Assembly: GCF_001636405.1 (NCBI RefSeq)
Contig: NZ_KV440950.1
Coordinates: forward strand, 2,937,712 to 3,001,711
Direction of reading: 5' to 3'
DNA from: Peribacillus frigoritolerans
GTDB taxonomy: Bacteria; Bacillota; Bacilli; Bacillales; DSM-1321
Length of the DNA: 64,000 nt
Shown here piece after piece: positions 48,334 to 63,703 of the stretch (position 1 is the first letter of the stretch; every line of letters begins with the position of its first letter). Position numbers and translations under genes: made by a program. The notes beneath the pieces are model-generated. The model did no database searches and was not told where the DNA came from. It worked only from the letters and a program-made list of their open reading frames with translations.

Positions 48334-48903
48334 GTGGAGGACTTTAAATCTATCTGTGTTACTGAAGGAATTAAAAAAGTGGATGTGATAAAAAATCCGA
48401 CGTCGTTTCCACTGATCGGAAAGGGGGCGCAAGGGGCCGTTTTTAAAATTTCCTCAGATAAATGTGTGAAAATTTGTGCAAAACCAGAATTTGCGGCTAA
48501 AGAGGGAAATGTATTAAAAATTGCACAGGAGTCTCCCGCTATTCCACGGCTTTATGAGGTGGGGCATAACTATATTATTATGGAATATCTTGAAGGGCCA
48601 ACTTTATTTCAATATTTAGAATCTGGGGGGATCCTATCCGAAAAATTGATGAGGCAAATTCTTTTTGTTTTAAAAGAAATGAAGCGATTAAAGTTTACCA
48701 GATTGGATGCCGATTTGCGCCACATTATTGTAACTAAGGAAGATGAATTAAAAGTAATAGATCATTATAGCTCCTTTACACGGATTCGAAACAAGCCAGA
48801 ATTGATATTCAAAGGCCTAAAAAAGTTAGGTTTATTACCAATGTTCTTGGAAGAATTAAAAGAAATGGATCCCGAATCCTATATAGAATGGAAAAATTTA
48901 TAA
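48334..48903 (+). CDS. Small protein-kinase-fold protein (YrzF-like) 1
   Basis: A 189-residue compact kinase-fold protein. It has the glycine loop LIGKGAQGAVFKI, the ATP-lysine K46 in CVKICA, the hinge YIIMEYLEGPTL, a catalytic-loop equivalent RLDADLRHIIV with D125, and the metal Asp D143 in VIDHYSS. The Asn normally five residues after the catalytic Asp is His (H130) and the DFG motif is D-H-Y. The activation and C-lobe parts are much shorter than in eukaryotic-type kinases. It resembles B. subtilis YrzF/YbdM-type proteins. The start is GTG 48334, 9 bases after AAGGAG, matching the MEDFK start of the related gene at 59355. Substrate unknown. Confidence 0.78.
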   Translation: MEDFKSICVTEGIKKVDVIKNPTSFPLIGKGAQGAVFKISSDKCVKICAKPEFAAKEGNVLKIAQESPAIPRLYEVGHNYIIMEYLEGPTLFQYLESGGILSEKLMRQILFVLKEMKRLKFTRLDADLRHIIVTKEDELKVIDHYSSFTRIRNKPELIFKGLKKLGLLPMFLEELKEMDPESYIEWKNL

Positions 48904-48904
48904 A

Positions 48905-48950
48905 TAAAAAAAGTAACTCCTTTAAAGCAAATAAGAGTTACTTTTTTCTA
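48905..48950. terminator. Bidirectional terminator
   Basis: A strong stem AAAAAAGTAACTC / GAGTTACTTTTTT between the convergent kinase-like and HipA-like genes. Confidence 0.8.
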
Positions 48951-48965
48951 TGGAAAAATCCAGCG

Positions 48966-49754
48966 TTATTTGGGATTGCTATGATGCTGGATGATACGTT
49001 CAACGATTTCAGGCAATTTATTTTTCTGTTCTAAAAGAAACTTGTAGAGAGCATCCCTATCCTTCGTTTTCACATTCCACTCTTTAGGGATGGATTCGAT
49101 TACTTGATAGATCGATTCGTTCGGCAATTTTACAATTTTTTCTATAAATGATGTAAGCTCTTTGTGATCATCGAGAAGAGAGAAGGCCCACTTATAAAAA
49201 GGCCAATGGTAATTATATACTGGTGTTTCACTTAGCGTTTGAGCAGACCATTGGTAGCGTCCTGGAAAAACTCTGCCATGATCAATCATATGGACATAAT
49301 AGCCGCCATCGCTGAGATTTTCCAAAATGACATTCATCGTACCTCGATCAGAGTTATTCACCCATTGGTCGAATACCGTTATACCGGCAAGCATATCCCG
49401 GTTTTTAACATCCATCTTTGTGGGAGGATTTTCTCTAACATTCTCGAAAACGGTACTGTTTTTAATAAATACACAGCCATATTGGTATCCAGAACTATAG
49501 TTGTGTTTAGTGGATTGTAATTCAGGCGTCTTCTTGATGAAATCTTCCGGTATATATACAAGATCAAATGGGATAACGGGAAGTGAAAGAAGCTCTGCCA
49601 ACTTTCCGATCAGGTATTCATTGACCACTTCCTTTTCTCTGCCTTTCTTAGTATCGAACCACTTCACGACATATTCTTTACCATCGCTGAAAAGAATGAC
49701 ATGTGCGGTTCCGCCCCTTAATGTTTGTACATATTTAACTGGATATTTTGTCAT
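48966..49754 (-). CDS. HipA-like kinase family protein
   Basis: A 262-residue protein of the HipA-like / PI3K-like kinase group, found in spore formers and of unknown substrate. Blocks are GGTAHVILFSDGKEYVVKWF (nucleotide lysine), EVVNEYLIGKLAELLSLPVI, MLAGITVFDQWVNNSDRGTM (catalytic D..N, here DRGTMN) and HMIDHGRVF (metal Asp). It lacks the HipB partner expected for a toxin system, and nothing here suggests toxicity. It is the last gene of a minus-strand series nudix, glycosyltransferase, decayed paralogue, this gene. The ATG at 49754 follows AAAGGAGACAAAGTG. Confidence 0.78.
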   Translation of the reverse strand: MTKYPVKYVQTLRGGTAHVILFSDGKEYVVKWFDTKKGREKEVVNEYLIGKLAELLSLPVIPFDLVYIPEDFIKKTPELQSTKHNYSSGYQYGCVFIKNSTVFENVRENPPTKMDVKNRDMLAGITVFDQWVNNSDRGTMNVILENLSDGGYYVHMIDHGRVFPGRYQWSAQTLSETPVYNYHWPFYKWAFSLLDDHKELTSFIEKIVKLPNESIYQVIESIPKEWNVKTKDRDALYKFLLEQKNKLPEIVERIIQHHSNPK

Positions 49755-49823
49755 ATCACTTTGTCTCCTTTAAAAATATTTGTCTAGCTCTTTTTCACTT
49801 TCACCATATCTTTTTTATTAACA

Positions 49824-50391
49824 TTATTGCTTCTGTATTGATTGATGAAATTCGTTATAAGTTTCGGTAAATGACTTTTCTTTTCTAAAAAGAAATTTGT
49901 ACAGCGCTTCACTTTTCTTCTTTGGGTAGGAATACAAATGATGTTAAATCCCTTCATTTAGCATAGAGAAGGCAAATGGATAAGTTTCTTGGTAACTGAT
50001 ACTGTACCTGACAACTCATTTTTGCATACTACGATATCACCCGAATTCTGGGATCAATCATATGGACAAAATTGACGCCTTCCCTAAGTTCTAGTAAAAC
50101 TTTTCGATAAATAAACACGAATATTGAATCTGAACAAAATTGTATTTTTGGAATGTAATTTGGGAGTGTTTTTATGATTTCGTTTGGGTATAAATTAGTC
50201 CGACGGGGACAAAAGGAAGGAACATTGCTAATTTATTGCACACATACTCAATTACTACTATTATTGGTTCTTTTATTTTCAGTGCCATTCATTTAATTAC
50301 AAACTTTTTACCATCGCTAAAAAGAATGACATGTACCTTTCCACAAATTAATGATTTTACGACCTCAACAGGTTATTTTGGACTGACCCAT
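49824..50391 (-). pseudogene. Decayed paralogue of the HipA-like kinase gene
   Basis: On the minus strand, VHVILFSDGKKFVIK (about 50283-50327) matches AHVILFSDGKEYVVK of the intact gene, ALYKFLFRKEKS near 49890 matches ALYKFLLEQKNK, and a QSYGQN-like stretch near 50070 matches the VHMIDHG region. The reading is interrupted by stops and frameshifts, and about 220 bases are missing relative to the intact 789-base gene. It lies between the glycosyltransferase and the intact copy, so this was a tandem duplication. Only the relic explains this 600-base gap. Confidence 0.75.
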
Positions 50392-50393
50392 GG

Positions 50394-51482
50394 TTAATTA
50401 ATTTCGTTGTTTTTTTCTATTATGCTGTATAGCCTTTGTTGTTCGATGATTTGTTTATTCAAATCGAAATTTTCATCAATTACCTGTCTTGCACTTCTGG
50501 TATATCTCTTCCATACTCTTGGATGACTCAGGAAATATTTTAGACCTTGAGCCAACTTTAAATCATCTTTCTCAGGAACAAGGTAACCTGTTTTTTTATG
50601 CTCAATCAATTCCGGAATCCCACCGTGAAAGGTGGAGATGACTGGTAAACCACTTGCCATAGCTTCTTTTAATGCATTTGGAATCCCTTCAACATCACCA
50701 TCTTCGCCTGTTTCACTGGCAAGGCAAAAGAGGTGGGAATCTCTTAATTCGTTAGAGATTTGGTTTGAATCCATTGGTCCTCTAAGAAAAACGCGTTCGT
50801 TTAATTGATTTTCATCAATGAAAATTCTTAACTTCTCTTCATCTTCTCCAGTCCCAATGATGTGCAGTGTCGTTCTAGGGTATTCCTGATGAATCCGTTG
50901 AAAAGCCTTCAAAAGTGTAAGGAACCCCTTTTTCTCGACAAGTCTGGCTACGGACAAGATTCGGATTTCTCCTTCATTAGGTAGGGAACGTTGGACAAAT
51001 GGGTATAAATCTAAATCCAGCCCCCCATATAGTACATGTATTTTATCTTCTTTAAATCCTAATTTTTTCAATTCATCTGCAAGAAAATGGCAAACTGAAA
51101 AACAAGCAGCTCCATGTTTTACTAAATTTTGATATCGGAGGACATTTTTGCGAAATCTCTTAAATGTTTGAGTGGAAGAATCACGTCCTCGAAAATGTAC
51201 AACCAAAGGTATATCATACTCTATTGCTGCTGGTAATATATCGATGGAATGTTTCCCCTGATGAGCGTGAATCGCGACGACATTTTGCTCCTTAAAGAAA
51301 GCTCCAAGGTCTTGAATTTCGTTCAAATTATAATAGTGTTCAAACTGATATTGAACATTGTCGCAATTTGGGTAAGGTCCTATAACAATAGGACGATATT
51401 GATCCAGCATAATGATCTGATTGTACATAAACCCTTGATTGATTTTTATTGGTTCTCTAATGTAAAAAGCGATTGTCTTCAC
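50394..51482 (-). CDS. CotSA/YtcC-like glycosyltransferase 1 (GT4)
   Basis: A 362-residue GT-B retaining glycosyltransferase of family 4. The N-terminal half reads TIAFYIREPIKINQGFMYNQ and VHFRGRDSS; the C-terminal half has VLYGGLDLDLYPF, ILSVARLVEKKGFLTLLKAF, GDVEGIPNALKEAMASGLPV and HGGIPELI with the E-x7-E donor site. It is closely similar to the protein at 62453 and less so to 57854. No signal peptide, so it works in the cytosol, likely the mother cell. Its start overlaps the stop of the upstream NUDIX gene by one base. The donor may be a UDP-sugar made by the 55-62 kb genes. Confidence 0.88.
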   Translation of the reverse strand: MKTIAFYIREPIKINQGFMYNQIIMLDQYRPIVIGPYPNCDNVQYQFEHYYNLNEIQDLGAFFKEQNVVAIHAHQGKHSIDILPAAIEYDIPLVVHFRGRDSSTQTFKRFRKNVLRYQNLVKHGAACFSVCHFLADELKKLGFKEDKIHVLYGGLDLDLYPFVQRSLPNEGEIRILSVARLVEKKGFLTLLKAFQRIHQEYPRTTLHIIGTGEDEEKLRIFIDENQLNERVFLRGPMDSNQISNELRDSHLFCLASETGEDGDVEGIPNALKEAMASGLPVISTFHGGIPELIEHKKTGYLVPEKDDLKLAQGLKYFLSHPRVWKRYTRSARQVIDENFDLNKQIIEQQRLYSIIEKNNEIN

Positions 51483-51955
51483 TATTTCAATCCCTTTCTT
51501 CTCTCTAAAATCAAATTTTCGATAAAACTTTGAAATATTTGTTGATCTCGTTCAGAAAGATCTTTCGGAAAAGCGGACCATTTAAAAAATTGTACTTTTT
51601 GTATTTCTATATCATCAGGTTTTAAATCTCCGCTGAGTATTTCTTCGGTAACGTAAGCAATGTTGACTGAAAAGTATTGATCACCATTAGGCAGCTTCGT
51701 AAAATAGTCCTTCCCTGAAAAAACGCCAATTAATTGAAGGTTTCCGATGTTAATTCCTGTTTCCTCCAAAATTTCACGTCTGCATGCCTCTTCCGCAGAT
51801 TCTCCTAATTCGATGAAGCCGCCCGGCAATTTCCACATTTTTTCGGATTGTACCATTAGAAAACGGCTGTTCTGATCGATAACCAAAACGGTGACCCCAG
51901 TAAGTATCAAAGCTCTAGTTCCTACGAGAGCACGTAAATCTTCAATATATCCCAT
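51482..51955 (-). CDS. NUDIX hydrolase
   Basis: A 157-residue NUDIX pyrophosphohydrolase. The Nudix box GFIELGESAEEACRREILEE followed by TGI is complete (G-x5-E-x7-R-E-x2-E-E-x-G-x). Flanking segments are VLVIDQNSRFLMVQSEKMWKL, written here as VIDQNSRFLMVQSEKMWKL, and VFSGKDYFTKLPNGDQYFSV. Substrates range from nucleotide sugars to oxidised nucleotides. Coupling to a glycosyltransferase (one-base overlap) suggests a nucleotide-sugar role, as inference. The ATG at 51955 follows AAGGAGACTTGAG. Confidence 0.88.
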   Translation of the reverse strand: MGYIEDLRALVGTRALILTGVTVLVIDQNSRFLMVQSEKMWKLPGGFIELGESAEEACRREILEETGINIGNLQLIGVFSGKDYFTKLPNGDQYFSVNIAYVTEEILSGDLKPDDIEIQKVQFFKWSAFPKDLSERDQQIFQSFIENLILERRKGLK

Positions 51956-52198
51956 CTCAAGTCTCCTTTCTGATCTTTCTGGTTAATCCACTTTTATAGT
52001 AAATGCAAAATGGAAAAGATTCGAAACGGACAAGTACATATATTTGTTTGTTTTTTGTAAAGTTCTTATTTTTATGTGTATGAGCATAAGAATCTGAAGA
52101 AATGCTAGGAAAGGCTTTCCTTAAGAACTCAATAAAAGAAGGTATGACTTAATTTTATGAATAAGTGTTATTATCCTAAAGCAACTATTCGATGATTT

Positions 52199-52207
52199 CA
52201 TAGTATA
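52199..52207 (+). promoter_or_regulatory. Sigma-K-like -10 element (CATAnnnTA)
   Basis: CATAGTATA lies 43 bases before the start of the kinase-like gene at 52251, a reasonable promoter distance. The expected AC at the -35 position is not at the standard spacing (an AC is found 13 bases upstream instead of about 16), so this is tentative. Confidence 0.3.
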
Positions 52208-52250
52208 GATATTATGGTTATTAATAAGCAGCAAAGAGGTGGTAGATTAG

Positions 52251-52847
52251 ATGAATGATTTTAAATTAATAAGGGTTGAAAGAATTGAAAAGAACGGTAA
52301 AAAGGACCTTCTTATTCATAATCCAACCACATTAAAACTAATTGGGGCAGGAAGTCAAGGTGCAGTTTTTCAGCTTGATGAAGATATTTGCGTAAAAATT
52401 TATGTCAATCCAAATGCAGCAACTAAAGAGGGAAAAGCACTTGAAGCAGCGAAGGATACTCATATTGTTCCGAGGTTATATGAAGTCGGACCAAACTATG
52501 TAATTATGGAATATTTAAAAGGTCCTAATCTAAAAGATTTTTTGAAAGGGAAGCAAGATATTCCCGAATCGATTACAGAACAAATCATAATGATTCGAAA
52601 GGAACTGAAGAGAGTTGGATTTATTAGAATCAAGACCTCAATCGGACATTTTGTTGTAACAAAGGGAAATGTGCTGAAAGCAATCGATCATTCAGATGGC
52701 CTCACAATGAATGATCCATATAATCCAAAGATGTTTCGTGATTTAAAGAAATTGGGGTTATTGGATACTTTCCTGAAACAAGCAAAGAAAATCGATCCTG
52801 AATCGTATGAAGAATGGCAAAAAAATATCGACTTCAATGCGATATAG
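52251..52847 (+). CDS. Small protein-kinase-fold protein (YrzF-like) 2, likely pseudokinase
   Basis: A 198-residue homologue of the gene at 48334. The glycine loop LIGAGSQGAVFQL, lysine K49 in CVKIYV and hinge YVIMEYLKGPNL are kept. The catalytic-loop equivalent reads RIKTSIGHFVV: the Asp present in the other copies is K128, and H133 again stands where Asn is expected. The metal-site D146-H is present. Loss of the catalytic Asp suggests a binding or scaffolding role. ATG 52251 follows AGAGGTGGTAGATTAG. Single gene with a terminator after a short gap. Confidence 0.78.
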   Translation: MNDFKLIRVERIEKNGKKDLLIHNPTTLKLIGAGSQGAVFQLDEDICVKIYVNPNAATKEGKALEAAKDTHIVPRLYEVGPNYVIMEYLKGPNLKDFLKGKQDIPESITEQIIMIRKELKRVGFIRIKTSIGHFVVTKGNVLKAIDHSDGLTMNDPYNPKMFRDLKKLGLLDTFLKQAKKIDPESYEEWQKNIDFNAI

Positions 52848-52965
52848 GAAACTAACCGATATAAATGAGATTATGCGAAATTTGGGCCTGGCCAGTATCG
52901 CTAACAGTGCATGATGATTTCTTACAAATCCAATTATGTCGTACAAGCAGGGAAAATTAAAAAAG

Positions 52966-53008
52966 GAAAGTCGAACCCTAAACATAAAGGAGTTCGACTT
53001 TTTAGTTT
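52966..53008 (+). terminator. Terminator downstream of the pseudokinase gene
   Basis: Stem AAAGTCGAAC / GTTCGACTTT followed by TTTAGTTT, about 120 bases after the stop. From here to 53458 no gene is supported. Confidence 0.7.
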
Positions 53009-53458
53009 GGAATTCTCCAGACTCTAAAATTCGCAATATGGGCGGAAATGCATTATTTCTCCCGTTTCTAAAAGTGCACGTTCGGCATTTATTAGGACAA
53101 ATTACAATATTCGTAAAATCATTTTTGCAACCAGATAACGTTTTTCCTTATTAAAGTGGTTTTTTTAAATTTTTTTTGGAAGATTGTATATGTTTAACAT
53201 TTACACATGACAAACGCTCAGTCATTCAAAGGCTTGTTGAATAACTATAGAAAGAAAGTGATGGTTGTTTATCTATGAAAGATCTGTCTATGCAAATAAG
53301 AAAATCGGAAACCACATGTATGGTTTCCTAAACTAAAATGAGGTGAATCATTTTCAAACATCCCTAAATTTGATGCCAAACATTTAGATTAAGACTGCTT
53401 AAACTGTACCATTTTTTGGGCTTCCATTACTCTTGAAGTATAGACCGGAATGATTACG

Positions 53459-53647
53459 ATGGATCAGTTGTTTTCCCGACACAATAAATTACAAGTACAT
53501 TGCTATCATTATGATCGGCAACGGCAACACAATCATGTCGACAATACTAAGAAATGGTTAAATAGCCTATCTCCGAATGTTCTTAAACTGATTCTGCAAC
53601 AAAAGCGATTTACTAGAAACATAAAAGGTGAATCCAAGGTCAATTGA
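53459..53647 (+). CDS. Doubtful small His/Gln-rich protein
   Basis: A 62-residue open frame starting at ATG 53459 (an alternative ATG is at 53450) with YHYDRQRQHNH near the N-terminus and the helical stretch KKWLNSLSPNVLKLILQQKR. Only a poor CCGGA-like ribosome binding site precedes it. Small His- and Tyr-rich proteins occur in spore coats, and the neighbouring gene is Gln-rich, which gives weak support. It may be chance. Confidence 0.3.
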   Translation: MDQLFSRHNKLQVHCYHYDRQRQHNHVDNTKKWLNSLSPNVLKLILQQKRFTRNIKGESKVN

Positions 53648-53727
53648 GAAGACGATTTTCTAACGACGCAATATGTAATTCAAATGTGCCTCCATAACCA
53701 ATAAATAGTGAAAAGGGTGGGAACCTA

Positions 53728-54342
53728 ATGGGTAAAAATGATCAAACAGATAATCACAAGGAAGACAATAGGAAGAAATATAACCATATATTAGAGAACA
53801 TTCAACTCCAACTCCAACTCCAAGAAAAACAACAGAAGGAACTTCAGGTGGAACTTCAGAATCAGTTAATTAAACAACAAAATGAGACTTTAAATAAAAT
53901 CTTACAAGAAATAACGAAGATTGCACAACCACTGGAAAAAGTTCAAGACCAACTCCAACACCAAGAAAAACAACAGAAGGAACTTCAGGTTCAACTTCAG
54001 AATAAATTATCTAAACAACAAGATGAGCATTTAGATAAAGTCTTACATGAAATATCGAAGCGTTCACAACCACTAGAAAAAATTCAAGTCCAACTCGAAC
54101 TCCAAGAAGAACAACAGAAGCAGCTTCAGATTCAACTTCAGAATCAGTTAATTAAACAACAAGATCAAACTTCAGATAAAATCTTGCAAGAAATAACGAA
54201 GATTGCACAACCACAACCACAACCCCTCTTATTAAAATCACCTTTTAGCATAATCGATACACTTGATTTAGATGTAGAAAAAAAGGCGCAAATTGCGATG
54301 TTTATAGCAAATAGCAGTAAAAATGAAGATGAAACTAAATAA
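53728..54342 (+). CDS. Gln-rich protein with three 47-residue coiled-coil repeats
   Basis: A 204-residue protein I do not recognise. After a charged N-terminus (residues 1-21) come three repeats of exactly 47 residues: 22-68, 69-115 and 116-162. Each is built as LEKIQxQLQLQEKQQKELQV, then QLQNQLIKQQ, then DKILQEITKIAQP. The repeats are alpha-helical and about one third Gln. The tail SPFSIIDTLDLDVEKKAQI is unlike the repeats and could be a separate binding element. No signal peptide or membrane segment. ATG 53728 follows AAAAGGGTGGGAACCTA. It lies within the spore-surface-type locus and is ended by a very strong terminator. A structural or scaffold role is inferred. Confidence 0.75.
   Translation: MGKNDQTDNHKEDNRKKYNHILENIQLQLQLQEKQQKELQVELQNQLIKQQNETLNKILQEITKIAQPLEKVQDQLQHQEKQQKELQVQLQNKLSKQQDEHLDKVLHEISKRSQPLEKIQVQLELQEEQQKQLQIQLQNQLIKQQDQTSDKILQEITKIAQPQPQPLLLKSPFSIIDTLDLDVEKKAQIAMFIANSSKNEDETK
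53791..54213 (+). repeat. Three tandem 141-bp coding repeats
   Basis: Units at 53791-53931, 53932-54072 and 54073-54213, all in frame and without insertions or deletions. They share CAAGAAAAACAACAGAAGGA (units 1 and 2 fully) and AAACAACAAGATGAG-like segments. Confidence 0.85.
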
Positions 54343-54383
54343 AGAAGAAGAGGCTGTTAAAGCCTCTTCTTCTTTATTTGGAA
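54336..54383 (+). terminator. Very strong terminator after the Gln-rich repeat gene
   Basis: A 19-bp stem AAATAAAGAAGAAGAGGCT paired across a short loop with its complement, overlapping the stop codon. Confidence 0.85.
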
Positions 54384-54753
54384 ACAAGTTCATTTCCATC
54401 GGATTCCGGTGCACAGTAGTTCCCATATGTCGAAACTAGACGAAGTTTGTAAATGGAGCGAAATGATTCATTAGAATTGTATCCAATATGCTAAGTTTTG
54501 CTCTTCATGTACCGAGAAAGTAAAAGTGTTGCATTACCCTCTAAAAGGATGATAAGTGTTGTTGCTTTAGAAGTAAAATTCCTTAACTATATCCATTCAA
54601 CATAGATCGAATTCTTATTAAAAATGGATGGGGTTAAAAAAACCTCCCCTTTCATTTGAAAATTCCCACCTCAAAATCATGAATACAGTCCATCATATAT
54701 TTTAAAATGGCTGTTTTCACATACTTTGTTCCTATTTACCAAGTAGTGAGGTG

Positions 54754-54882
54754 TGGTTGATTTCCCCTCCAGATGCTCGCTTTCCGCGGGGCGGGCGGTG
54801 AGCCCCCTCGGCGTAAACGCCTGTGGGGTCACACCTGTCCCGCCGCTCCCGCAGGAGTCTCGCACTTCCGCTCCAATCAACC
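54754..54882. repeat. Full copy of a GC-rich Bacillaceae intergenic repeat
   Basis: A GC-rich island bounded by inverted GGTTGATTTCCCCTCCAGAT and TTCCGCTCCAATCAACC. Inside are CGCTTTCCGCGGGGCGGGCG, CCCCTCGGCGTAAACGCCTG and GCTCCCGCAGGAGTCTCG, with several hairpins. Shorter, decayed copies are at 13839-13906 and 42910-42974. It has no coding content; frames across it are chance. Such elements are scattered in intergenic regions of related genomes (from memory). Confidence 0.6.
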
Positions 54883-55054
54883 TTAGATTGTTTCGTTTTA
54901 AAAACAACAACCTTTACGAAAAGAGCCTTTAAAATTAAACAAAAAACTGCCTGCGATGGAGTTTTTCAAAGAAAGGGAAAGGGAAATCGTTTAGGCTACT
55001 GTACCGCAAAAAGCTCCACAGCGGTTTATACAAACCGTATATCGACCATTTCAA

Positions 55055-55090
55055 TCTCCATTACATAAAAAGTGTAATGGAGGTTTTAAA
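55055..55090 (+). terminator. Hairpin terminator before galU
   Basis: Stem CTCCATTACA / TGTAATGGAG followed by GTTTTAAA. It would end transcription from an unidentified element in 54890-55055. GGCTGCGGGGC / GCCACAGCC-type GC-rich hairpin sequence follows at about 55103-55125. Confidence 0.6.
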
Positions 55091-55257
55091 GGGCACTAAC
55101 CGACAGGCTGCGGGGCCCGGCCACAGCCAGATTGGAATTCTTCCATATATAGCCTACTGGCCCCGTTAAATAAAAATGGACGAATTGGGCTACTAACTAG
55201 ACCGTAAGTTGTCCTATTGCATATAAAGGATTAATGAATGCAAAAGGGAGGCAGCTT

Positions 55258-56163
55258 ATGAAAATCCGAAAGGCCATTATTCCGGCCGCAGGTCTAGGGA
55301 CCCGATTTTTGCCTGCTACAAAAGCTCAGGCTAAGGAAATGCTGCCGATTGTTGATAAACCAACGATTCAATATATTGTTGAAGAAGCAGTAGCTTCGGG
55401 CATAGAGGAAATAATTATCATAATCGGTAGAGGAAAAAGATCAATAGAGGATCATTTTGATAAATCCTATGAGTTGGAAGATGCACTTTTAAGAAAAAAC
55501 CAGCTTGATATTTTAGAGGAAGTTCAGAAAATATCCAGCTTGGCAAATATCTATTATGTCCGCCAAAAGGAACCGATGGGTCTAGGACATGCAATTCTCT
55601 GTGCTAAAAGCTTCATTGGAAATGAACCTTTTGCCGTTTTGTTAGGGGATGACATCGTTATGTCTAAAACACCCTGTCTGAAACAAATCATCAGTGTTTT
55701 TGAGTATTGCAACAGTTCCGTCGTAGCTGTTCAGAATGTTCCGGAAAAGGATGTCAGTAAATATGGAATTATTAAGCCAAAAGGGACAATGATAGAGCCA
55801 AACCTTTTTCATATAGATTCTTTGGTGGAAAAACCGAAAAGGGAAGAGGCGCCTTCCAGATATGCGATAATGGGGCGTTATGTTTTTAGACCCGAGATTT
55901 TTGAAACGCTTTCCAAGCTTCCGGTTGGACATGGTAATGAATTACAACTTACTGATGCCATTAATGAGCTAAATAAACAGCAGGCTGTATTAGCATATAA
56001 CTTTGAGGGAAACCGATATGATATTGGTGATAAAGTTGGATTCATTAAGGCAACAATAGACTTTGCTCTGCGCAGGGATGATATAAGAGACGAGGTACTT
56101 TCCTATTTAAGGGATGTAAATAAGAAAGAAAACCTCCAAATTATAAAGAGAGAGCTTGAATAA
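55258..56163 (+). CDS. galU: UTP-glucose-1-phosphate uridylyltransferase
   Basis: A 301-residue nucleotidyltransferase making UDP-glucose. Motifs: IIPAAGLGTRFLPATKAQAK, EMLPIVDKPTIQYIVEEA, RQKEPMGLGHAILCAK, VLLGDDIV and the substrate loop LVEKPKREEAPS. It matches Bacillus GtaB/YtdA-type enzymes. I chose ATG 55258 behind GGGAGG; TTG 55234 lacks a ribosome binding site. It is followed one base later by UDP-glucose dehydrogenase, the same order as ytdA-ytcA in B. subtilis, where the genes serve the spore surface; chromosomal gtaB is probably elsewhere. Confidence 0.94.
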   Translation: MKIRKAIIPAAGLGTRFLPATKAQAKEMLPIVDKPTIQYIVEEAVASGIEEIIIIIGRGKRSIEDHFDKSYELEDALLRKNQLDILEEVQKISSLANIYYVRQKEPMGLGHAILCAKSFIGNEPFAVLLGDDIVMSKTPCLKQIISVFEYCNSSVVAVQNVPEKDVSKYGIIKPKGTMIEPNLFHIDSLVEKPKREEAPSRYAIMGRYVFRPEIFETLSKLPVGHGNELQLTDAINELNKQQAVLAYNFEGNRYDIGDKVGFIKATIDFALRRDDIRDEVLSYLRDVNKKENLQIIKRELE

Positions 56164-56164
56164 T

Positions 56165-57484
56165 ATGAAAATAGCAGTTTTGGGTACAGGTTATGTCGGG
56201 CTGTCCACTGGTGTTTGTTTGTCAGAAATAGGTCATAATGTCATTTGTATCGATACAGATGAACAGAAAATTAAAAGCCTACGTCAAGGGATTTCTCCAA
56301 TATATGAACCTGGTCTGGAGAATTTGCTTATTCAAAATGCTGCAGCGGGTAGACTGCTATTTACTACATCTCATCGAGAAGCGCTAAATGGTGCCGAGAT
56401 TATCATAATTGCCGTAGGAACACCGCAAATGGAGGATGGGGGAGCAGATTTATCTTATATTGTGCAGGCCGCGAAGGATATTGCTGCGAACCTGGTACAG
56501 AGTTCAGTAGTCGTTATAAAGAGTACTGTGCCTGTTGGTACGAATGATTTTATTAAAAGCATCATTGAAGAACATTGTAACGAAAGTGTCACCTTTAATA
56601 TGGTATCAAATCCTGAATTTTTAAGACAAGGGTCTGCCGTCATGGATACGATGCAAGCAGATCGAATCATAATCGGTTCTGAAAATGATGAGGCTGCTAA
56701 GAAAGTACAAGAAATGTATCGTCCATTAAATGTACCATTTATATTAACAAGCATACGAAGTGCGGAAATGATTAAGTACGCATCTAATGCCTTTTTGGCG
56801 ACCAAGATTAGCTTTATCAATGAAGTTGCCAATTTGTGCGGAGTAGTGGGTGCAGATGTTAAAGATGTAGCAAAGGGAATGGGAAAAGATAAAAGGATCG
56901 GAGAAGCTTTTTTACAGCCCGGCATTGGTTATGGAGGATCTTGTTTTCCAAAGGATGTTAAAGCGTTGCTTCATACTGCCAATTTAAATGGAGTACATTT
57001 TTCCCTGTTAAAAGAAACAGTAGCGATCAATGATTTTCAGCAGGAGCTCCTTGTAACCAAAGCGATAAATCGCTTAGGAGATTTAAAAGGGAAAAAAGTT
57101 GCAATGCTTGGTCTCGCTTTCAAGCCAGAGACAGACGACATGAGGGAAGCTCCATCAATCAAAATTGCGCGTTCATTAACCAAACTTGGAGCAGAAGTGG
57201 TAGCTTATGATCCGGTTGCAGTGGATAATGCGAAGAACATATTAGGGGATACAATCAGGTTTGCAAGCACAGTCCGCGAAGCGGCAGTGAATGCGGATGC
57301 TGTATTCATTGTTACCGAATGGAAAGAGTTTAGACTTTTAGATTTGAAAACATTGATGACAACAATGAGACGGCCAATCATTTTTGATGGTAGAAATTGT
57401 CTTGAAGAAGATCGAATCAGAGCGTGCAAGAAAATTGAATATTACCCAATAGGAAGACCAGCAATTGTTATTGGAATGACATAA
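56165..57484 (+). CDS. UDP-glucose 6-dehydrogenase
   Basis: A 439-residue enzyme that oxidises UDP-glucose twice with NAD to UDP-glucuronate. NAD motif AVLGTGYVGLSTGVCLSEIG, STVPVGT, EFLRQGSAV and the catalytic Cys in GYGGSCFPKDVKAL are intact; the UDP-binding domain has LGLAFKPETDDMREAPS. I chose ATG 56165, directly after the galU stop, rather than TTG 56156. It corresponds to YtcA/TuaD-type enzymes. Product UDP-glucuronate would be the substrate of the epimerase at 60885. A weak hairpin follows at 57556. Confidence 0.94.
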   Translation: MKIAVLGTGYVGLSTGVCLSEIGHNVICIDTDEQKIKSLRQGISPIYEPGLENLLIQNAAAGRLLFTTSHREALNGAEIIIIAVGTPQMEDGGADLSYIVQAAKDIAANLVQSSVVVIKSTVPVGTNDFIKSIIEEHCNESVTFNMVSNPEFLRQGSAVMDTMQADRIIIGSENDEAAKKVQEMYRPLNVPFILTSIRSAEMIKYASNAFLATKISFINEVANLCGVVGADVKDVAKGMGKDKRIGEAFLQPGIGYGGSCFPKDVKALLHTANLNGVHFSLLKETVAINDFQQELLVTKAINRLGDLKGKKVAMLGLAFKPETDDMREAPSIKIARSLTKLGAEVVAYDPVAVDNAKNILGDTIRFASTVREAAVNADAVFIVTEWKEFRLLDLKTLMTTMRRPIIFDGRNCLEEDRIRACKKIEYYPIGRPAIVIGMT

Positions 57485-57554
57485 AGCGAAAAAAATTTCT
57501 AACACTTCCTTAACTCAGACATGTTGAAAACGTATATTAGGTTCAAACTGGAAA

Positions 57555-57595
57555 TGCAGCACCTTTGATCTTATCTTGGGTGCTTTTTTATATTT
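57555..57595 (+). terminator. Probable terminator after the UDP-glucose dehydrogenase gene
   Basis: AGCACC / GGGTGCT stem with TTTTTTAT. The 260 bases to the next gene otherwise hold only a candidate promoter. Confidence 0.55.
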
Positions 57596-57792
57596 CTTAA
57601 ATAGAAGAAAAATCTTTATCGACGATTAAAACCTTAGATTAACATCAACTATAACATGTTGTTTTTATAATCATTGTTTGAAACTTGTGTCATGGCACCT
57701 ACTTAAATCCCCCTTTGTATTAGACAAACGCATACTCTCTGCCATTTAGCTTTACTGTATGTTATTAGTCCATGCGTACCTAGGGAGTCCTG

Positions 57793-57801
57793 CATAATAT
57801 A
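57793..57801 (+). promoter_or_regulatory. Sigma-K-like -10 element before the glycosyltransferase-kinase pair
   Basis: CATAATATA fits CATAnnnTA and lies 52 bases before the start codon at 57854. An AC is at 13 bases upstream, not at the usual spacing, as with the element at 52199. Tentative. Confidence 0.3.
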
Positions 57802-57853
57802 CTTGAAAAGGTCCAGGAAATTTGCTTACTATGCATGAAAGGAGATCATTTAT

Positions 57854-59368
57854 TTGCACACAGTTATGCATTTGAATTTAAGAGTTGATCCGACCCAATA
57901 TATCTCACAGATTCGAGAAGTTCCTGATTATGATTATATTCATATGGTACGACAACCTAAGTATATGATAGATCTTTCCCTTTTAAATGAGAAGGTTCAT
58001 TATCTCAATGAAGTTTTTTCACCAAAAGAATATGTCAAAAGAAATAATATCTCCCTATTACATGCTCATCATGGCCAATTAGGGATGTTATTACTTCCTT
58101 TTAAAGAGGAAACAAACCTTCCGTTGGTAACAAGTATTAGAGGCAGGGATGCAACCCTGGCTAATCAGCCCATTGGGTATCTAGATAACATGAAAATGCT
58201 ATTTGATCGAGGGGAGCGTTTTTTTCCAGTTTGTCAGTATTTAGCAGATAGGTTAATTGCTTGGGGTTGTCCTTCAGAAAAAATTAGAGTGCTATATGGG
58301 GGCGTTGACCTTAACGAATTCAAATACCGGGCACCACATAAAGGGGATTCTCAAAACATTCTTTCCATCGGTAGGTTGGTGGAAAAAAAAGGACATCACA
58401 TCTTAATGCAAGCTTTCCAAAAAATCAGAGGTAAATTTCCAAATGCAACCTTGACGATTATCGGTAGAGGGGGGCTTGAAGAATATCTCATTTCATTGGC
58501 AAATCAACTTAATTTAGGAGACTCTTTTCGCCTATTAAACCATCTCCCTAAAGATCAAGTTCGAGAACAAATGACCAATGCAGATATATTTTGTGCCGCG
58601 AGCTTAGAAGCTGCCGATGGAGATGTAGAAGGTATACCTAATACATTAAAAGAAGCTATGGCGATTGGAGTACCAGTGATTTCGACCAATCATGCGGGCA
58701 TCCCTGAATTAATAACAAATAACAAAGAAGGGGTTTTAGTACAAGAAAACAATGTGGATGAACTGGCAGATGCTCTTGAATTTATGCTATCTAACAGAGA
58801 GAAATGGGAAACATATACAGTAGCGGCTCGTCAAAAAGTAGAACAAAAATTTAACCTCGCCCAACAACTTCAACAACAAGCAGAATTTTATGATGAACTT
58901 GTAGCCCCTTATAAATTAGGTAAACGATATTTAGTAACACCGCGCCAAAAAGATAAAAAAGTCCTTAATGAGACGCCACAGCCTCAACAGCAAGGTAAGT
59001 ATGATGGCGAAAGGATAGCGCCTAGAAAAAAAGCCGAATTAGCCAAAAAAGCCCTTATTTATATGCAACAGCTACAACAGCTTCAAGGGCTTCCACAGTT
59101 ACAACAACTTAAACAGTTTCCGCAGCTTCAGCAGTTACAACAGCAGACTAATGATAAAGTCAAAGATGAACTTGTAACATCTATTAAAAAAGAAAAAGAA
59201 GCTAAAGTTCAACAGGGAGCTAAGGATCAAGATGAAAAAATAGCTTTTCGTAAAAAAGAAAAAAAGGCTCAGAAAGCCGAAAAAGTAAAAAAAGCCCTTT
59301 ATAAAATTCAAAAATTTCAACAGCAGGCCATAGATGAGCAGTTAGGAGGAGATCATGGAGGACTTTAA
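57854..59368 (+). CDS. CotSA/YtcC-like glycosyltransferase 2 (GT4) with Gln/Lys-rich tail
   Basis: A 504-residue protein. Residues about 1-350 are a GT4 enzyme with SLLHAHHGQLGMLLLPF, TSIRGRDATL, VLYGGVDLNEFKY, ILSIGRLVEKKGHHILMQAF and GDVEGIPNTLKEAMAIGVPV plus HAGIPELI. Residues about 375-500 are a low-complexity tail: first Gln-rich (MQQLQQLQGLPQLQQLKQF), then Lys/Gln-rich (RKKEKKAQKAEKVKKALYK). The start is TTG 57854, 9 bases after AAAGGAG. The last 14 bases overlap the start of the tandem kinase-like gene, so the two are translationally coupled. Expected to add sugars to a spore-surface polymer; acceptor unknown. Confidence 0.87.
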   Translation: MHTVMHLNLRVDPTQYISQIREVPDYDYIHMVRQPKYMIDLSLLNEKVHYLNEVFSPKEYVKRNNISLLHAHHGQLGMLLLPFKEETNLPLVTSIRGRDATLANQPIGYLDNMKMLFDRGERFFPVCQYLADRLIAWGCPSEKIRVLYGGVDLNEFKYRAPHKGDSQNILSIGRLVEKKGHHILMQAFQKIRGKFPNATLTIIGRGGLEEYLISLANQLNLGDSFRLLNHLPKDQVREQMTNADIFCAASLEAADGDVEGIPNTLKEAMAIGVPVISTNHAGIPELITNNKEGVLVQENNVDELADALEFMLSNREKWETYTVAARQKVEQKFNLAQQLQQQAEFYDELVAPYKLGKRYLVTPRQKDKKVLNETPQPQQQGKYDGERIAPRKKAELAKKALIYMQQLQQLQGLPQLQQLKQFPQLQQLQQQTNDKVKDELVTSIKKEKEAKVQQGAKDQDEKIAFRKKEKKAQKAEKVKKALYKIQKFQQQAIDEQLGGDHGGL

Positions 59369-60536
59369 AACCATTACTGTTACCAAGGGTGAAAAATCTT
59401 TGGAAATTCACAATCCGACAAGCTATCCGCTGATTGGAATGGGAGCTCAAGGTGCAGTTTTTCAACTTTCAGAAGATAAATGTGTAAAAATCTATTCAGA
59501 CCCAGTACAAGCGAAAATGGAGGAAGAAGCTCTTGCAGCAGGAAAACATCTACCCTTTATGCCTTTGGTATATGATACAGGACCAAACTATATAGTCATG
59601 GAATATTTTAATGCCCCGACCTTAAAAGAATATCTGAGAAATTGTACGTATATCCCTGATTCTATAGTAGAGAAACTTCTCTATATATTAAAGGAATTAA
59701 AACAAGCAAAGTTCACCATGATAGATGCCCCTCTACGCCATATTTTTGTCGTCGGTAATGAGGAACTTAAGGTGATTGACCATGTGAATTCCTTTAAAAG
59801 GATACACCCTGTACCATTAAAATTATTAAGAGATTTGAAAATAATCCTTTTAAAGGACTCGTTCCTAGATCAAGTGAAAAAGCTTGAACCGGACACCTTC
59901 AATGAGTGGGAGGGTTATTTCAATCAAAATAGTTTGGACTTTAGAAATATTCCAGTCCACTCAGGAGGTTCAGGTAACGGAGTGAAAGTGGATAGCGCCA
60001 TAACACAAACCCTCATTGGAAAAGGGCATCAAGGTGCTGTTTATCGAGTGTCTGAAGAGACATGCGTCAAACTTTATGGAAAAACTGAACATGCAAATCA
60101 GGAAAAAATGGTCCTTTTATCAAGTCAAGACTTGCCCTTTATACCGAAAGTCTTTGAAACAGGACCCAATTATATTTTAATGGAATATCTATTAGGACCA
60201 GATTTAAATACGTTTCTTAAAAAACAATCTGTACTTTCTGAGGACATCACAAAACGGTTACTCTATATATTGAAAACAATGGAAAAATCAGGTTTCAAAC
60301 AAATTGATGCTCCATTACGACATATCATTATAACCAAGAATGGTTTTAAATTAGTCGACCATGTGTACTCTTTTTCACGTGAACAAAAAAGACCTCTCGA
60401 GTTATTTAAAGACCTGCGGGAAAGAAATTTTTTAGATGCCTTTTTAGAACAAGTAAAGGCGATAGATCCCGATACGTATGCTGAATGGACAAAAACACCA
60501 ATCCCATTAGATGAAAATGAAAATACCCTTGTATAG
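59355..60536 (+). CDS. Tandem double kinase-fold protein (YrzF-like) 3
   Basis: A 393-residue protein made of two kinase-fold units homologous to the genes at 48334 and 52251. Unit 1 (about 1-195): loop LIGMGAQGAVFQL, K45 in CVKIYS, hinge YIVMEYFNAPTL, D124-A-P-L-R-H129 and D142-H-V. Unit 2 (about 205-385): loop LIGKGHQGAVYRV, K239 in CVKLYG, hinge YILMEYLLGPDL, D318-A-P-L-R-H323 and D335-H-V. Both units keep the catalytic Asp and replace the Asn five positions later by His. They are joined by a short Gly/Ser linker (SGGSGNG). ATG 59355 follows AGGAGGAGATC inside the preceding glycosyltransferase gene. Confidence 0.8.
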   Translation: MEDFKTITVTKGEKSLEIHNPTSYPLIGMGAQGAVFQLSEDKCVKIYSDPVQAKMEEEALAAGKHLPFMPLVYDTGPNYIVMEYFNAPTLKEYLRNCTYIPDSIVEKLLYILKELKQAKFTMIDAPLRHIFVVGNEELKVIDHVNSFKRIHPVPLKLLRDLKIILLKDSFLDQVKKLEPDTFNEWEGYFNQNSLDFRNIPVHSGGSGNGVKVDSAITQTLIGKGHQGAVYRVSEETCVKLYGKTEHANQEKMVLLSSQDLPFIPKVFETGPNYILMEYLLGPDLNTFLKKQSVLSEDITKRLLYILKTMEKSGFKQIDAPLRHIIITKNGFKLVDHVYSFSREQKRPLELFKDLRERNFLDAFLEQVKAIDPDTYAEWTKTPIPLDENENTLV

Positions 60537-60884
60537 TCTTAGTTATCTAACCGTAACCGAGCATATAAAAAACCGATGATGATTTCGCATTCACCGGTTT
60601 CCAAGATGGTTTTAGCATTAACTCACTTACGTAAGTGCTAATTCACAGCGGGTATAAGAGAGAATAACTCATGAGGCTTAGAGTGAAAAAAATAGCATGA
60701 CATTGGTGGTTTACGAATAAAACGTAAGTCTCTCTCCAATGAGAATTTTGAGTTTATTTCCTCTTTTTATCCGTCATAAATTGGTGTTCTGTTGGTGTAA
60801 AGAATCGAAAGTATCAATGTATAAATAATGATAATCAGTGTTCCGAAAAAGTGTCAGAATCCTAATGTAATAGAAAGGATTGAA

Positions 60885-61898
60885 ATGAATGCTATGAACA
60901 TTTTAGTAACAGGGGCAGCAGGATTCATTGGTTTCCATTTAACAAAACGTTTGTTAGCCCTAGATAACAAGGTTATTGGAGTAGACAATATTAATGATTA
61001 TTATGATGTTATTTTAAAAAACAATCGACTGAAGATATTAGAAGAAAATCCTGATTTTGAATTCCACAAAATGGATTTGTCAAATAAAGAGAAACTAAAT
61101 CAATTATTCAAAGACAGAACCATTGATATAGTCATTAACTTAGCAGCCCAGGCTGGAGTACGTTATAGCATAGAAAATCCGGATTCTTATGTTAATTCCA
61201 ACCTTGTTGGGTTTGTCAATATCTTGGAGGTTTGTCGACACAATAACGTAAAGCACTTAATTTATGCATCCTCTAGTTCTGTATATGGAGCAAATACAAA
61301 TATCCCCTTCTCAACCAAAGACCCAGTGGATCATCCAGTAAGTTTATACGCTGCCACTAAAAAGTCTAATGAATTAATGGCTCATACGTATAGTCATTTA
61401 TATAATATTCCAACCACAGGACTCCGTTTCTTTACGGTGTATGGTCCATGGGGGAGACCTGATATGGCTTATTACTCTTTTACTAAAAATATAATCGAAG
61501 AGAATACAATAAAGGTTTTTAATAATGGAGATATGAGAAGAGACTTCACTTATATTGATGATATTGTTGAAGGAATGGTCCGGTTACTTGATAAACCACC
61601 GGTTCATACTATTGGATGGGACAGAGCTAACCCTGATTCAAGTTCAAGCTATGCTCCATACAAAATTTATAATATCGGTAACAATAAACCTATAAAATTA
61701 ATGGATTTCATTAACACTTTAGAAAAACTAATTGGCAAAAAGGCAAAAGTAGAATTCTTACCAATGCAACCGGGAGATGTTAAGGAGACATATGCAGATA
61801 TTGCCGATTTACATGCTGATGTGGGGTTCCATCCTTCAACAACAATAGAAGAAGGTTTAGCTCATTTTGTAAATTGGTACAAAAAGTACAATAAATAA
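60885..61898 (+). CDS. UDP-sugar (glucuronate) 4-epimerase family protein
   Basis: A 337-residue extended SDR. The NAD motif GAAGFIGFHLTKRL, the Ser/Thr motif IYASSSSVYGAN and the catalytic SLYAATKKSNELMA are present, followed by TVYGPWGRPDMAYYSF and RDFTYIDDIVEGM. The sequence type matches UDP-glucuronate 4-epimerases and YtcB. With UDP-glucose dehydrogenase in the same locus, conversion of UDP-glucuronate to UDP-galacturonate is likely, as inference. I chose ATG 60885 after GAAAGGA; ATG 60894 is an alternative. The 348-base gap before it contains a weak hairpin (AAACCGATGA / TCACCGGTTT, 60570-60600) and nothing else I can name. Confidence 0.9.
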   Translation: MNAMNILVTGAAGFIGFHLTKRLLALDNKVIGVDNINDYYDVILKNNRLKILEENPDFEFHKMDLSNKEKLNQLFKDRTIDIVINLAAQAGVRYSIENPDSYVNSNLVGFVNILEVCRHNNVKHLIYASSSSVYGANTNIPFSTKDPVDHPVSLYAATKKSNELMAHTYSHLYNIPTTGLRFFTVYGPWGRPDMAYYSFTKNIIEENTIKVFNNGDMRRDFTYIDDIVEGMVRLLDKPPVHTIGWDRANPDSSSSYAPYKIYNIGNNKPIKLMDFINTLEKLIGKKAKVEFLPMQPGDVKETYADIADLHADVGFHPSTTIEEGLAHFVNWYKKYNK

Positions 61899-62178
61899 GG
61901 AAAAAAAACAGTGAGTTTTACCAAATGGGATATTAATCGATAAAAAATAAAAATAGGAATCTCTTTTGAAGTCCAGCCTTGAGGAAATATTACTAGTCAT
62001 GGTGTATGTGAAAAATAGGTGTTGTCAAACTTCAATGTGCATATTAGGGCAGCACTGATCAATAAATTTAAAGTTTAATATGTAAAAACCCAAAACCCAA
62101 GAATGGGTATAAGGACGAATAATGCTAGTGAAAAAGATAAATTAAAAATTTTGTAAGTCATTAAAAGGAGAAAGTAAT

Positions 62179-62451
62179 TTGAATCCTGTAAATATGAAAA
62201 CTCAATTGGAAGTTCTTAATGAGTATAATTTGTCAGATTTTCTCATGACAACCCTTAAACGAAATTCTACAAAAGATCCTCTATTCAAATTAAATCCTCT
62301 GTTTGAAAACTACTTTAAAGTTTGTTCTGAAGACCTGCCATATAAAGACATTTATAAAGCCGATTCTATTTCCCCTTCTGAATATCACAAGCAAGTGAAA
62401 CAAATTGCAGAACGGGAAAAGAGAAAATTTCTATTAAAGGGACTGAGGTGA
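62179..62451 (+). CDS. Small hypothetical protein coupled to the glycosyltransferase
   Basis: A 90-residue protein I do not recognise. It has LEVLNEYNLSDFLMTTLKRN near the N-terminus and ends with a basic helix (EYHKQVKQIAEREKRKFLLK). No membrane segment or signal. The start is TTG 62179 behind AAAGGAGAAAGTAA, a very good ribosome binding site. Its stop is one base before the ATG of the glycosyltransferase at 62453, so they should be made together. The gap before it (61899-62178) shows no promoter I can defend. Confidence 0.72.
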   Translation: MNPVNMKTQLEVLNEYNLSDFLMTTLKRNSTKDPLFKLNPLFENYFKVCSEDLPYKDIYKADSISPSEYHKQVKQIAEREKRKFLLKGLR

Positions 62452-62452
62452 G

Positions 62453-63703
62453 ATGAGAACCATTGCTTATTTTGTAAGTGAAAACATTAAAACACACCAA
62501 CGTTTTATATATAATCAAATCGTAAAAATAACTAACTATCGCACAATCGTAATCGGCCCATTCGACAATGCCGACCGTACAGAATTCCCCTTTGAAAACT
62601 ACTATAATATAAACAAAATTAAAGATCTAAAAAAGTTCTTCGAAGAACAAGATATCATAGCCATTCATGCTCATCACGGATCACACGGACAAGAGATTTT
62701 GCCATTATGTGAAAAATATAATATTCCTTTGATTGTTAGCATTAGAGGACGAGATGGTTCGGACAGACCGGAAATTTTCGAAAAAAATGCTAAGCGATAT
62801 TCAGCTTTAAATAAACATGGTGCACACTATTACCCTGTATGCCAATATCTTGCAGAAGGATTAAGAAGGTTAGGAATTCCGGCTAAGAATATGCATGTAT
62901 TATATGGTGGTATCGAATTAGATCTTTTCCCCTATGCTAACCGCACTCTTCCTACATTAGGCGAAATAAGAGTTCTATCGGTAGGTAGACTTGTAGACAA
63001 AAAAGGATTTGTTACTCTTATAAAAGCATTTAAACGCATTTATACACAATATCCAAATGCTAGACTGCATATTATTGGAGCAGGTGAAGATGAGAAAAAA
63101 ATCAAATCCACCATTGCAGAATATAACCTTAAAGATGTTGTGATTCTTAGAGGAGCTATGGATTCAAAACAGGTTTCGGACGAATTGAAAAAAGCCCATA
63201 TCTTCTGTCTAGCAAGTCAGACAGCTAAAAATGGTGATATCGAAGGTATTCCTAATGCCTTAAAAGAAGCAATGGCTAGCGGTTTACCTGTCGTTTCCAC
63301 TCGACACGCAGGAATCCCTGAATTAATTGAACATCAGAGAACAGGATACCTAGCGCCAGAAAAAAATGATATGGAGTTAGCGAAAGGCATACAATTCTTT
63401 ATAGAAAATCCAGATGTTTGGACCGACTATACGGAAAGAGCACGGAAAGTCATTGAAGAAAAATTTGATGTCAATAAACAAATTATTGAGCAACAAAGAC
63501 TATATTCTCTTGTAAATACAGTGAAAACTGAAAATGCAACGAAAAAGAAAACCAAAGCGGAAACGGAAAAGAAAACGTATACGCAAACGGAAACGGAAAA
63601 GAAAAAGAAAACCAAAGCGGAATCGGAAAAGAAAAAGGAAATGAAAAAGAAATCGAAAACAAAAACGAAAACGAAAACGGAAAAGAGTAAAAAGAAAAAA
63701 TAA
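62453..63703 (+). CDS. CotSA/YtcC-like glycosyltransferase 3 (GT4) with Lys-rich tail
   Basis: A 416-residue protein. The enzyme part (about 1-362) closely matches the glycosyltransferase at 50394: FVSENIKTHQRFIYNQ, IVSIRGRDGS, VLYGGIELDLFPY, VLSVGRLVDKKGFVTLIKAF, GDIEGIPNALKEAMASGLPV and HAGIPELI. The last 54 residues are almost only Lys, Thr and Glu (KKKTKAETEKKTYTQTETEK and so on), encoded by a degenerate AAACGGAAAAGAAAA-type tandem repeat at 63541-63700. B. subtilis YtcC is similar in length to this gene. Order epimerase, small protein, glycosyltransferase resembles ytcB-ytcC. The tail could be an anchor or cross-linking segment, as inference. Confidence 0.87.
   Translation: MRTIAYFVSENIKTHQRFIYNQIVKITNYRTIVIGPFDNADRTEFPFENYYNINKIKDLKKFFEEQDIIAIHAHHGSHGQEILPLCEKYNIPLIVSIRGRDGSDRPEIFEKNAKRYSALNKHGAHYYPVCQYLAEGLRRLGIPAKNMHVLYGGIELDLFPYANRTLPTLGEIRVLSVGRLVDKKGFVTLIKAFKRIYTQYPNARLHIIGAGEDEKKIKSTIAEYNLKDVVILRGAMDSKQVSDELKKAHIFCLASQTAKNGDIEGIPNALKEAMASGLPVVSTRHAGIPELIEHQRTGYLAPEKNDMELAKGIQFFIENPDVWTDYTERARKVIEEKFDVNKQIIEQQRLYSLVNTVKTENATKKKTKAETEKKTYTQTETEKKKKTKAESEKKKEMKKKSKTKTKTKTEKSKKKK
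63541..63700 (+). repeat. Purine-rich degenerate tandem repeat encoding the Lys-rich tail
   Basis: The units AAAACCAAAGCGGAA and CGGAAAAGAAAA recur, with the whole segment almost free of T on the plus strand. The repeat could expand or contract by slippage, changing tail length. Confidence 0.65.

Follow-up and report, generated by a model that had tools for sequence, protein, structure and literature searches.

A glycosyltransferase clade of Peribacillus and its relatives keeps a kinase-fold neighbour while the family of that neighbour changes

The window analyzed here is a 64,000-nucleotide stretch of the Peribacillus frigoritolerans genome (assembly GCF_001636405.1, contig NZ_KV440950.1, positions 2,937,712 to 3,001,711 of the forward strand), and its last quarter holds a sugar locus in which glycosyltransferases (GTs) of the GT4 type are encoded beside proteins with a kinase fold. 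The new result is that the clade of these GTs keeps a kinase-fold neighbour while the family of the neighbour changes among tandem YrzF-like proteins of two kinase-fold units, HipA_2 kinases and CotS-type kinases (YrzF-like serves here as a provisional name). The locus holds one GT of each pairing type, designated here by start position in the window: 57854 (tandem), 50394 (HipA_2) and 62453 (CotS-type, of which a remnant is left). We favor, at a probability of about 0.55, a reading of the locus as three modules of GT and kinase-fold protein in a probable spore-surface glycan pathway, with the partner docking the GT on the coat.

Pairing and partner exchange across genomes

A kinase-profile scan of 84,980 species genomes, from which the best 80 of 83 relatives found with two peptide patterns were kept, gave 77 loci, which are for this reason a sample. 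Tandem kinases are encoded at 42 of them; the other 35 are 16 single units above 100 bits and 19 weaker matches. A GT lies directly upstream on the same strand at 40 of the 42 tandem loci, with a gap of -76 to +61 bases that is mostly a small overlap. The two exceptions are L083, with broken frames and a GT piece 938 bases off, and L041, which has no GT. A second sample comprised 299 genomes from the order, with some species shared with the larger scan; a kinase was matched at E<=1e-25 in 54 of them and a GT at E<=1e-70 in 31. Kinase matches reached E<=1e-70 in 17 genomes, and each of these has the GT (1.8 expected), next to a kinase unit. The counts are not independent, because the species are related. 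The check named in the original prediction, adjacency of the two genes in other genomes, thus came out far above background, and the idea of a pairing is confirmed and widened. Two peculiarities of the records are of note. The P. frigoritolerans T7-IITJ record (L032, L083) has the GT and kinase frames of the locus broken, perhaps by sequencing errors. Two records titled Lutibacter sp. B2 (L041, L076), a genus of the Bacteroidota, carry kinase units of a spore-former type, and the title may be wrong.

An epimerase gene is the other constant companion. It was found in 51 of 57 tandem loci (50 by clustering, 37 of these directly downstream), and neighbours other than the GT and the epimerase reach at most 13 of the 57; these loci mix two overlapping sets, whereas the set of 42 above is unmixed. 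The frequencies of epimerase and GT indicate that GT, tandem kinase and epimerase travel as a cassette.

The partner itself is exchanged. Among 69 distinct GTs scoring above 450 bits, the partner within 1.3 kb was a tandem kinase for 47, a HipA_2 kinase for 12, a CotS-type kinase for five and a CotS remnant for two, with none called for three; an intact kinase-fold gene of one of the three families is therefore within 1.3 kb of 64 of the 69. One uncalled GT (L031_19143) lies at a contig edge, another (L035_13183) has a remnant-like open reading frame (ORF) of 103 amino acids (aa) directly upstream, and the third is taken up below. As a control, a partner stood beside one of 13 other GT4 matches of the P. 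frigoritolerans genome (flanks of about 1.5 kb), and that one is a CotS/CotSA-type pair. There is some circularity in the partner calls, since neighbours from this same analysis went into the HipA_2 and CotS profiles; three HipA_2 and three CotS-type neighbours scanned with Pfam and NCBIfam agree with the calls. PF20613 was confirmed for the three HipA_2 neighbours and for the HipA_2 kinase of the locus, and the three scanned CotS-type neighbours, which are divergent, match TIGR02906 at E 2.7e-23 to 2e-28, below its cut-off. A tree built from 89 GTs groups those paired with tandem kinases in a single clade (support 100/99; 48 rows, including the contig-edge row); the sister clade, with 22 rows, contains GTs of the HipA_2- and CotS-type pairings intermingled. 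To fit the branches with strong support, the HipA_2 label must have changed at least three times and the CotS label at least twice. Among the titles and abstract openings listed by searches of the open-access literature we found no description of these pairings of GT and kinase-fold protein.

The locus and the catalytic residues of its kinase-fold proteins

The gene list of the original prediction matches our ORF and domain scans: within 15 kb there are three GT4 genes, four kinase-fold units in three genes, a HipA_2 gene with a decayed copy, and genes for a NUDIX hydrolase, GalU, UDP-glucose 6-dehydrogenase (UGDH) and an epimerase. Two features had been overlooked, the remnant at 62179-62451 and the loss of the catalytic Asp in unit 52251. 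The features are as follows (coordinates in the window, strand).

48328..48903, +: single YrzF-like kinase-fold unit, probable start GTG at 48334 (ORF, domain and profile comparison); by residue alignment, catalytic Asp present (LDADLRH) and His in place of the metal-ligand Asn
48966..49754, -: HipA_2 kinase (PF20613, 71.6 bits, cut-off 27)
about 49842-50372, -: decayed second HipA_2 copy, in pieces in more than one frame and without a long frame (best tblastn piece E 1.6e-14)
50394..51482, -: GT4 glycosyltransferase of the HipA_2-paired type (PF00534, GT tree)
51482..51955, -: NUDIX hydrolase (PF00293, E 3.9e-21), overlapping the start of GT 50394 by one base
51956..52250: divergent region, with a TTGTCC box facing the NUDIX gene (complement of 52028-52033) and CATAGTATA at 52199-52207 facing unit 52251
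52251..52847, +: YrzF-like unit with Lys replacing the catalytic Asp, a likely pseudokinase under purifying selection (dN/dS 0.12-0.24)
53728..54342, +: Q-rich, probably coiled-coil protein; homologues, within the set searched, in Peribacillus-type loci only
55234..56163, +: GalU-like UTP-glucose-1-phosphate uridylyltransferase, named from its own sequence
56156..57484, +: UGDH, named from sequence; its homologue L157:2779-4062 matches TIGR03026
57769..57801, +: conserved promoter-like box (TCCATGC ... CATAATATA) 5' of GT 57854
57854..59368, +: GT4 glycosyltransferase of the tandem-kinase-paired type, with a Q/K-rich C-terminal tail of 152 aa
59355..60536, +: tandem kinase-fold protein of two units, overlapping GT 57854 by 14 bases
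60828..61898, +: UDP-sugar epimerase (closest PDB sequence 5u4q, E 1e-134; next 6zl6)
62179..62451, +: remnant of a CotS-type kinase gene, 90 aa, C-terminal region present and kinase core missing (profile match)
62453..63703, +: GT4 glycosyltransferase grouping with the CotS-type-paired GTs, with a K/T/E-rich tail

All three GTs score above the PF00534 (Glycos_transf_1) cut-off of 26.4, at 121.3, 135.3 and 137 bits (E 4e-35 to 6e-40). In the 5.46 Mb of the genome, the kinase-unit profile gave 317-336 bits for the four units of the locus and 66 bits for the next match (a distant single-unit relative at C1:951518), and the GT profile 593-687 bits for the three GTs and 93 bits for the next. These gaps confine both sets to this 15 kb. 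The other three kinase-fold units are 41-47% identical to unit 48328, whose best match in the kinase scan is 92% identical; its nearest named relatives are P. frigoritolerans records. No Rfam family matched inside the locus at gathering thresholds; a GC-rich stretch at 54760-54900, between the Q-rich gene and GalU in AT-rich surroundings, likewise has no Rfam match. Elsewhere in the window, an ordinary SAM riboswitch (RF00162, 85.9 bits) at 19650-19758 lies 5' of an apparent run of sulfur-assimilation genes that starts at 20228.

The kinase-fold units are atypical. They carry the Gly-loop, Lys, Glu and both Asp residues and can be aligned with PDB kinases; the best Pfam kinase matches (PF00069/PF01163) are 22.8 (cut-off 31.7) and 20.5 (cut-off 22), both below cut-off, and PDB sequence searches returned generic kinases only. 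In the iDapLRH motif, the Asp aligns with the HRD Asp and the His with the Asn of PDB kinases. Among 84 distinct tandem units (42 N-terminal and 42 C-terminal), Lys and Glu are present in all 84 and the catalytic Asp and the DFG Asp in 82 each, the N-terminal units of L081 and L085 lacking both. From this pattern, the units plausibly bind nucleotide. Neither the intact kinase units of the locus nor its HipA_2 kinase matched the CotS/CotI models (TIGR02906, NF053880) at E<=1.

Two members of the locus depart from a complete kinase. The Lys that replaces the catalytic Asp of unit 52251 is shared with relatives in Peribacillus and Halalkalibacter, and since the gene has lost this residue and is still under purifying selection, it likely encodes a conserved pseudokinase. 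The remnant at 62179-62451 matches positions 238-298 of 332 of a profile built from five CotS-like neighbours (44.5 bits, or 44 among all ORFs), and its N-terminal residues resemble a CotS-type start by eye only (0.3 bits). On this match it is derived from a CotS-type kinase gene, and as it aligns with the last third of the profile and begins like a CotS-type protein, the kinase core in between seems to have been lost. The same remnant ORF occurs in genome G185 and in P. muralis, three Peribacillus-type genomes in all, and the remnant ORF of L182 scores 83 bits with the CotS-type profile. Its dN/dS is 0.37-0.53, compared to 0.16-0.41 for GT 62453, and constraint on the remnant is thus weak. 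With three families in the partner slot, a likely pseudokinase and a remnant, phosphorylation is not to be assumed.

The arrangement around GT 50394 (the order NUDIX, GT, HipA_2, with a divergent YrzF-like unit) recurs in Peribacillus relatives, in Halalkalibacter okhensis and in G019. HipA_2 genes also associate with a second GT4 group. They occur at 54 places in 45 of the 299 genomes of the order, with a GT4 gene within 1.8 kb at 36 of the 54 (rough expectation 0.7), a YrzF-like unit at 23 and neither at 14. At 18 places outside the window both are present, the GT4 being of the other group (41-62 bits), and in all 14 of these whose gene order was examined it is YrzF-like unit, GT4, HipA_2. 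A PDB sequence search gave no match for HipA_2. In L254 (G125) YrzF-like and HipA_2 genes alternate, two of each, with no GT4 match in 16 kb. In L084 (Paenibacillus typhae) and L088 (Ammoniphilus) a YrzF-like unit adjoins HipA_2 with gaps of 4 and -3, and L088 has a weak GT4 match 888 bases away. A relative of the kinase units with eight in-frame stops lies beside HipA_2 in G185 (C1:2757798-2758322); it is probably the counterpart of unit 48328, decaying in this sister genome.

Spore context and the weighing of explanations

The connection to the spore coat that had been predicted is supported indirectly, by neighbouring genes and an upstream box. Of 26 genomes with a GT of the tight clade, 14 carry a CotS-family gene that exceeds the curated cut-off, and in eight the distance between the GT and such a gene is about 10 kb or less; in those eight genomes the GT is surrounded by CotSA-type GTs and homologues of UGDH, GalU or epimerase. 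The sequence CATAnnnTA, the -10 element of sporulation sigma factors E and K, stands upstream of 25 of 38 tandem-type GTs; among 326 other genes in these loci, 35 have it. In 24 of those 25 GTs its distance to the start of the gene is 41-62 bases. A Fisher P of 2e-13 is a guide only, the species being related (free upstream DNA was at least 100 bases for the controls and 80 for the GTs). A conserved GTCCA-like box precedes CATAnnnTA, and 31 of 33 aligned sequences have a C 22 bases ahead of CATAnnnTA. At the HipA_2-type modules, a TTGTCC box faces the NUDIX gene in all six loci whose gene chain reached it, and CATAnnnTA faces the pseudokinase in seven of seven divergent regions. Across the whole window CATAnnnTA is not above chance (37 occurrences, 40 expected). 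The cluster context and the conserved box together suggest a spore role.

In the proposed explanation, GalU, UGDH and the epimerase would, judging from their families, make a UDP-hexuronic acid or its 4-epimer. The kinase-fold partner encoded beside each GT of the clade would bind that GT in a complex and place it on the growing coat, and for catalytically complete partners an additional phosphorylation of the glycan or its coat acceptor is probable. A tandem YrzF-like protein, a HipA_2 kinase or a CotS-type kinase could occupy the partner slot, the HipA_2 slot of the locus being accompanied by the divergently transcribed pseudokinase. Among 40 pairs, charged tails are on the kinase in 25, on the GT in four, on neither in 11 and on both in none, which is compatible with one tail serving a complex.

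Several observations weigh against this reading. The metal-binding Asn is replaced by His in 81 of the 84 tandem units, and GT 62453 has only a kinase remnant as its neighbour. The third uncalled GT (L172 of G042), a member of the tight clade, has no partner within 1.3 kb, its CotS-family genes being about 4 kb away. Support is weaker at some forks among the GTs paired with HipA_2 and CotS-type kinases. Of 398 genomes from the class, 46 carry the GT at E<=1e-70, mostly scoring around 300 bits, and 23 have a kinase unit at E<=1e-40, but only 10 of the 46 GT carriers also have such a unit (within 2 kb in seven of the 10), and GTs of the family below 420 bits mostly have no called partner, many of them seen with only 1.5 kb flanks. 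The class-wide counts indicate that the pairing belongs to the tight GT clade and not to the wider family. As to the spore, patterns for sigma-K, sigma-E and sigma-G that include the -35 element matched upstream of none of the 38 GTs versus 9, 12 and 5 of the 326 controls, CATAnnnTA being the one pattern with enrichment, and the full box shows no enrichment genome-wide in P. frigoritolerans (14 matches versus 13 in a reversed control).

The foremost alternative is a glycan kinase, in which the partners phosphorylate the sugar added by the GT, as the heptose and Kdo kinases of lipopolysaccharide (LPS) do, and the pairing reflects consecutive enzyme steps. The near-invariant Lys, Glu and Asp residues of the tandem units, the weak RfaY similarity of unit 52251 (E 0.0028), the Kdo-kinase similarity of the CotS-type neighbours, the overlap with the GT gene and the epimerase adjoining in most tandem loci all agree with it. 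We consider it somewhat unlikely, since the RfaY-similar unit is the very one that lacks the catalytic Asp and is still under purifying selection, the kinase core is missing beside the third GT, and the change from Asn to His speaks against it as well. It appears improbable that the partners are protein kinases acting on coat proteins or on the module's charged tails, with the GT a co-regulated neighbour. CotH phosphorylates CotB and CotG, and the tails, which are 60% K/R/H/D/E compared to 28% in the body (25 proteins) and sit on kinase or GT and never on both, could be substrates; against this, the 11 pairs lack a tail, and in the tails examined it is K/H/D/R and not Ser that is abundant. A locus for a vegetative capsule or exopolysaccharide, with regulators next to it and no part in the spore, is just as improbable: the colanic-acid protein WcaL is the top NCBIfam match of the GTs (far under its cut-off), GalU, UGDH and epimerase serve capsules too, and CATAnnnTA is absent from the 160 bases upstream of all 14 trio operons of the second GT4 group, but no flippase, polymerase or co-polymerase was found among ten locus proteins scanned, the GT sits in a cluster of the cotS/cotI/cotSA type in eight genomes, and the box precedes the tandem-type GTs.

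The docking reading can be extended, as a tentative generalization, to the kinase fold as a generic and near-obligatory partner of spore-coat GT4 enzymes, the slot being filled by BSK (bacterial spore kinase)/CotS, HipA_2 or YrzF-like proteins, pseudokinases and even a remnant without the kinase core among them. This would point to a common structural function, in docking the GT or presenting the acceptor, to which phosphorylation could be added as an option. That the pairing turns up again in dozens of relatives suggests that this sugar machinery, probably of the spore surface, generally requires a partner with the shape of a kinase. What a GT4 of the spore-coat glycan needs a kinase fold for becomes a testable question, and the locus is a good place to ask it, because one genome holds all three GT pairing types, a pseudokinase and a core-deleted remnant.

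Comparison with known systems

The GTs had been described as CotSA/YtcC-like. They are of the GT4 family, and a CotSA/YtcC identity was rejected at the level of the clade: CotSA-type GTs, assigned by their position beside true CotS/CotI genes and by an N-terminal motif, score 46-80 bits with the profile that gives 593-687 bits for the GTs of the locus. P. frigoritolerans has its own CotSA-type GT at about 1.088 Mb, beside a CotS-family gene (324.8 bits) and 1.9 Mb from the locus.

Among other known families, the protein at 48966-49754 is a HipA_2 member above the curated cut-off, found here beside a NUDIX-GT pair. The kinase-fold units have kinase motifs in common with the small Ser/Thr kinase-like proteins of YrzF type and differ from them in being tandem or single, in mostly having His for Asn in the catalytic loop and in lying beside GT4 genes. 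The LPS core glycan kinases RfaY/WaaY and KdkA are also small kinase-fold enzymes that act alongside glycosyltransferases, with weak profile similarity; the units of the locus are not members, the single match noted above being far below cut-off, and LPS is another pathway.

The closest parallel is the CotS/CotI (YtaA)-CotSA/YtcC-ytdA-ytcA-ytcB system. According to the 2009 work on bacterial spore kinases (PMC2860764), these kinases cluster with CotSA/YtcC, CotS is required for CotSA assembly, and CotS/YtaA and their GT class always occur together, for a reason that the work leaves open. The system shares with our locus a GT4 gene beside a kinase-fold gene together with GalU, UGDH and epimerase, and both active and pseudokinase versions; GT 62453 with its CotS-type remnant is a further likeness. 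The CotS-family neighbourhood of the eight genomes resembles the cluster reported for B. subtilis and its relatives (PMC2860764). The GTs of the locus, in contrast, are another GT4 clade, and their partners are YrzF-like tandem proteins or HipA_2 kinases and not BSKs. A kinase fold with a spore GT4 thus has precedent, and what is new is the presence of other kinase families in the slot, their exchange on the GT tree and the epimerase cassette. Here another GT4 clade obeys the rule of constant co-occurrence with other kinase families, among which it switches, and the requirement for a kinase fold is thereby uncoupled from any single family.

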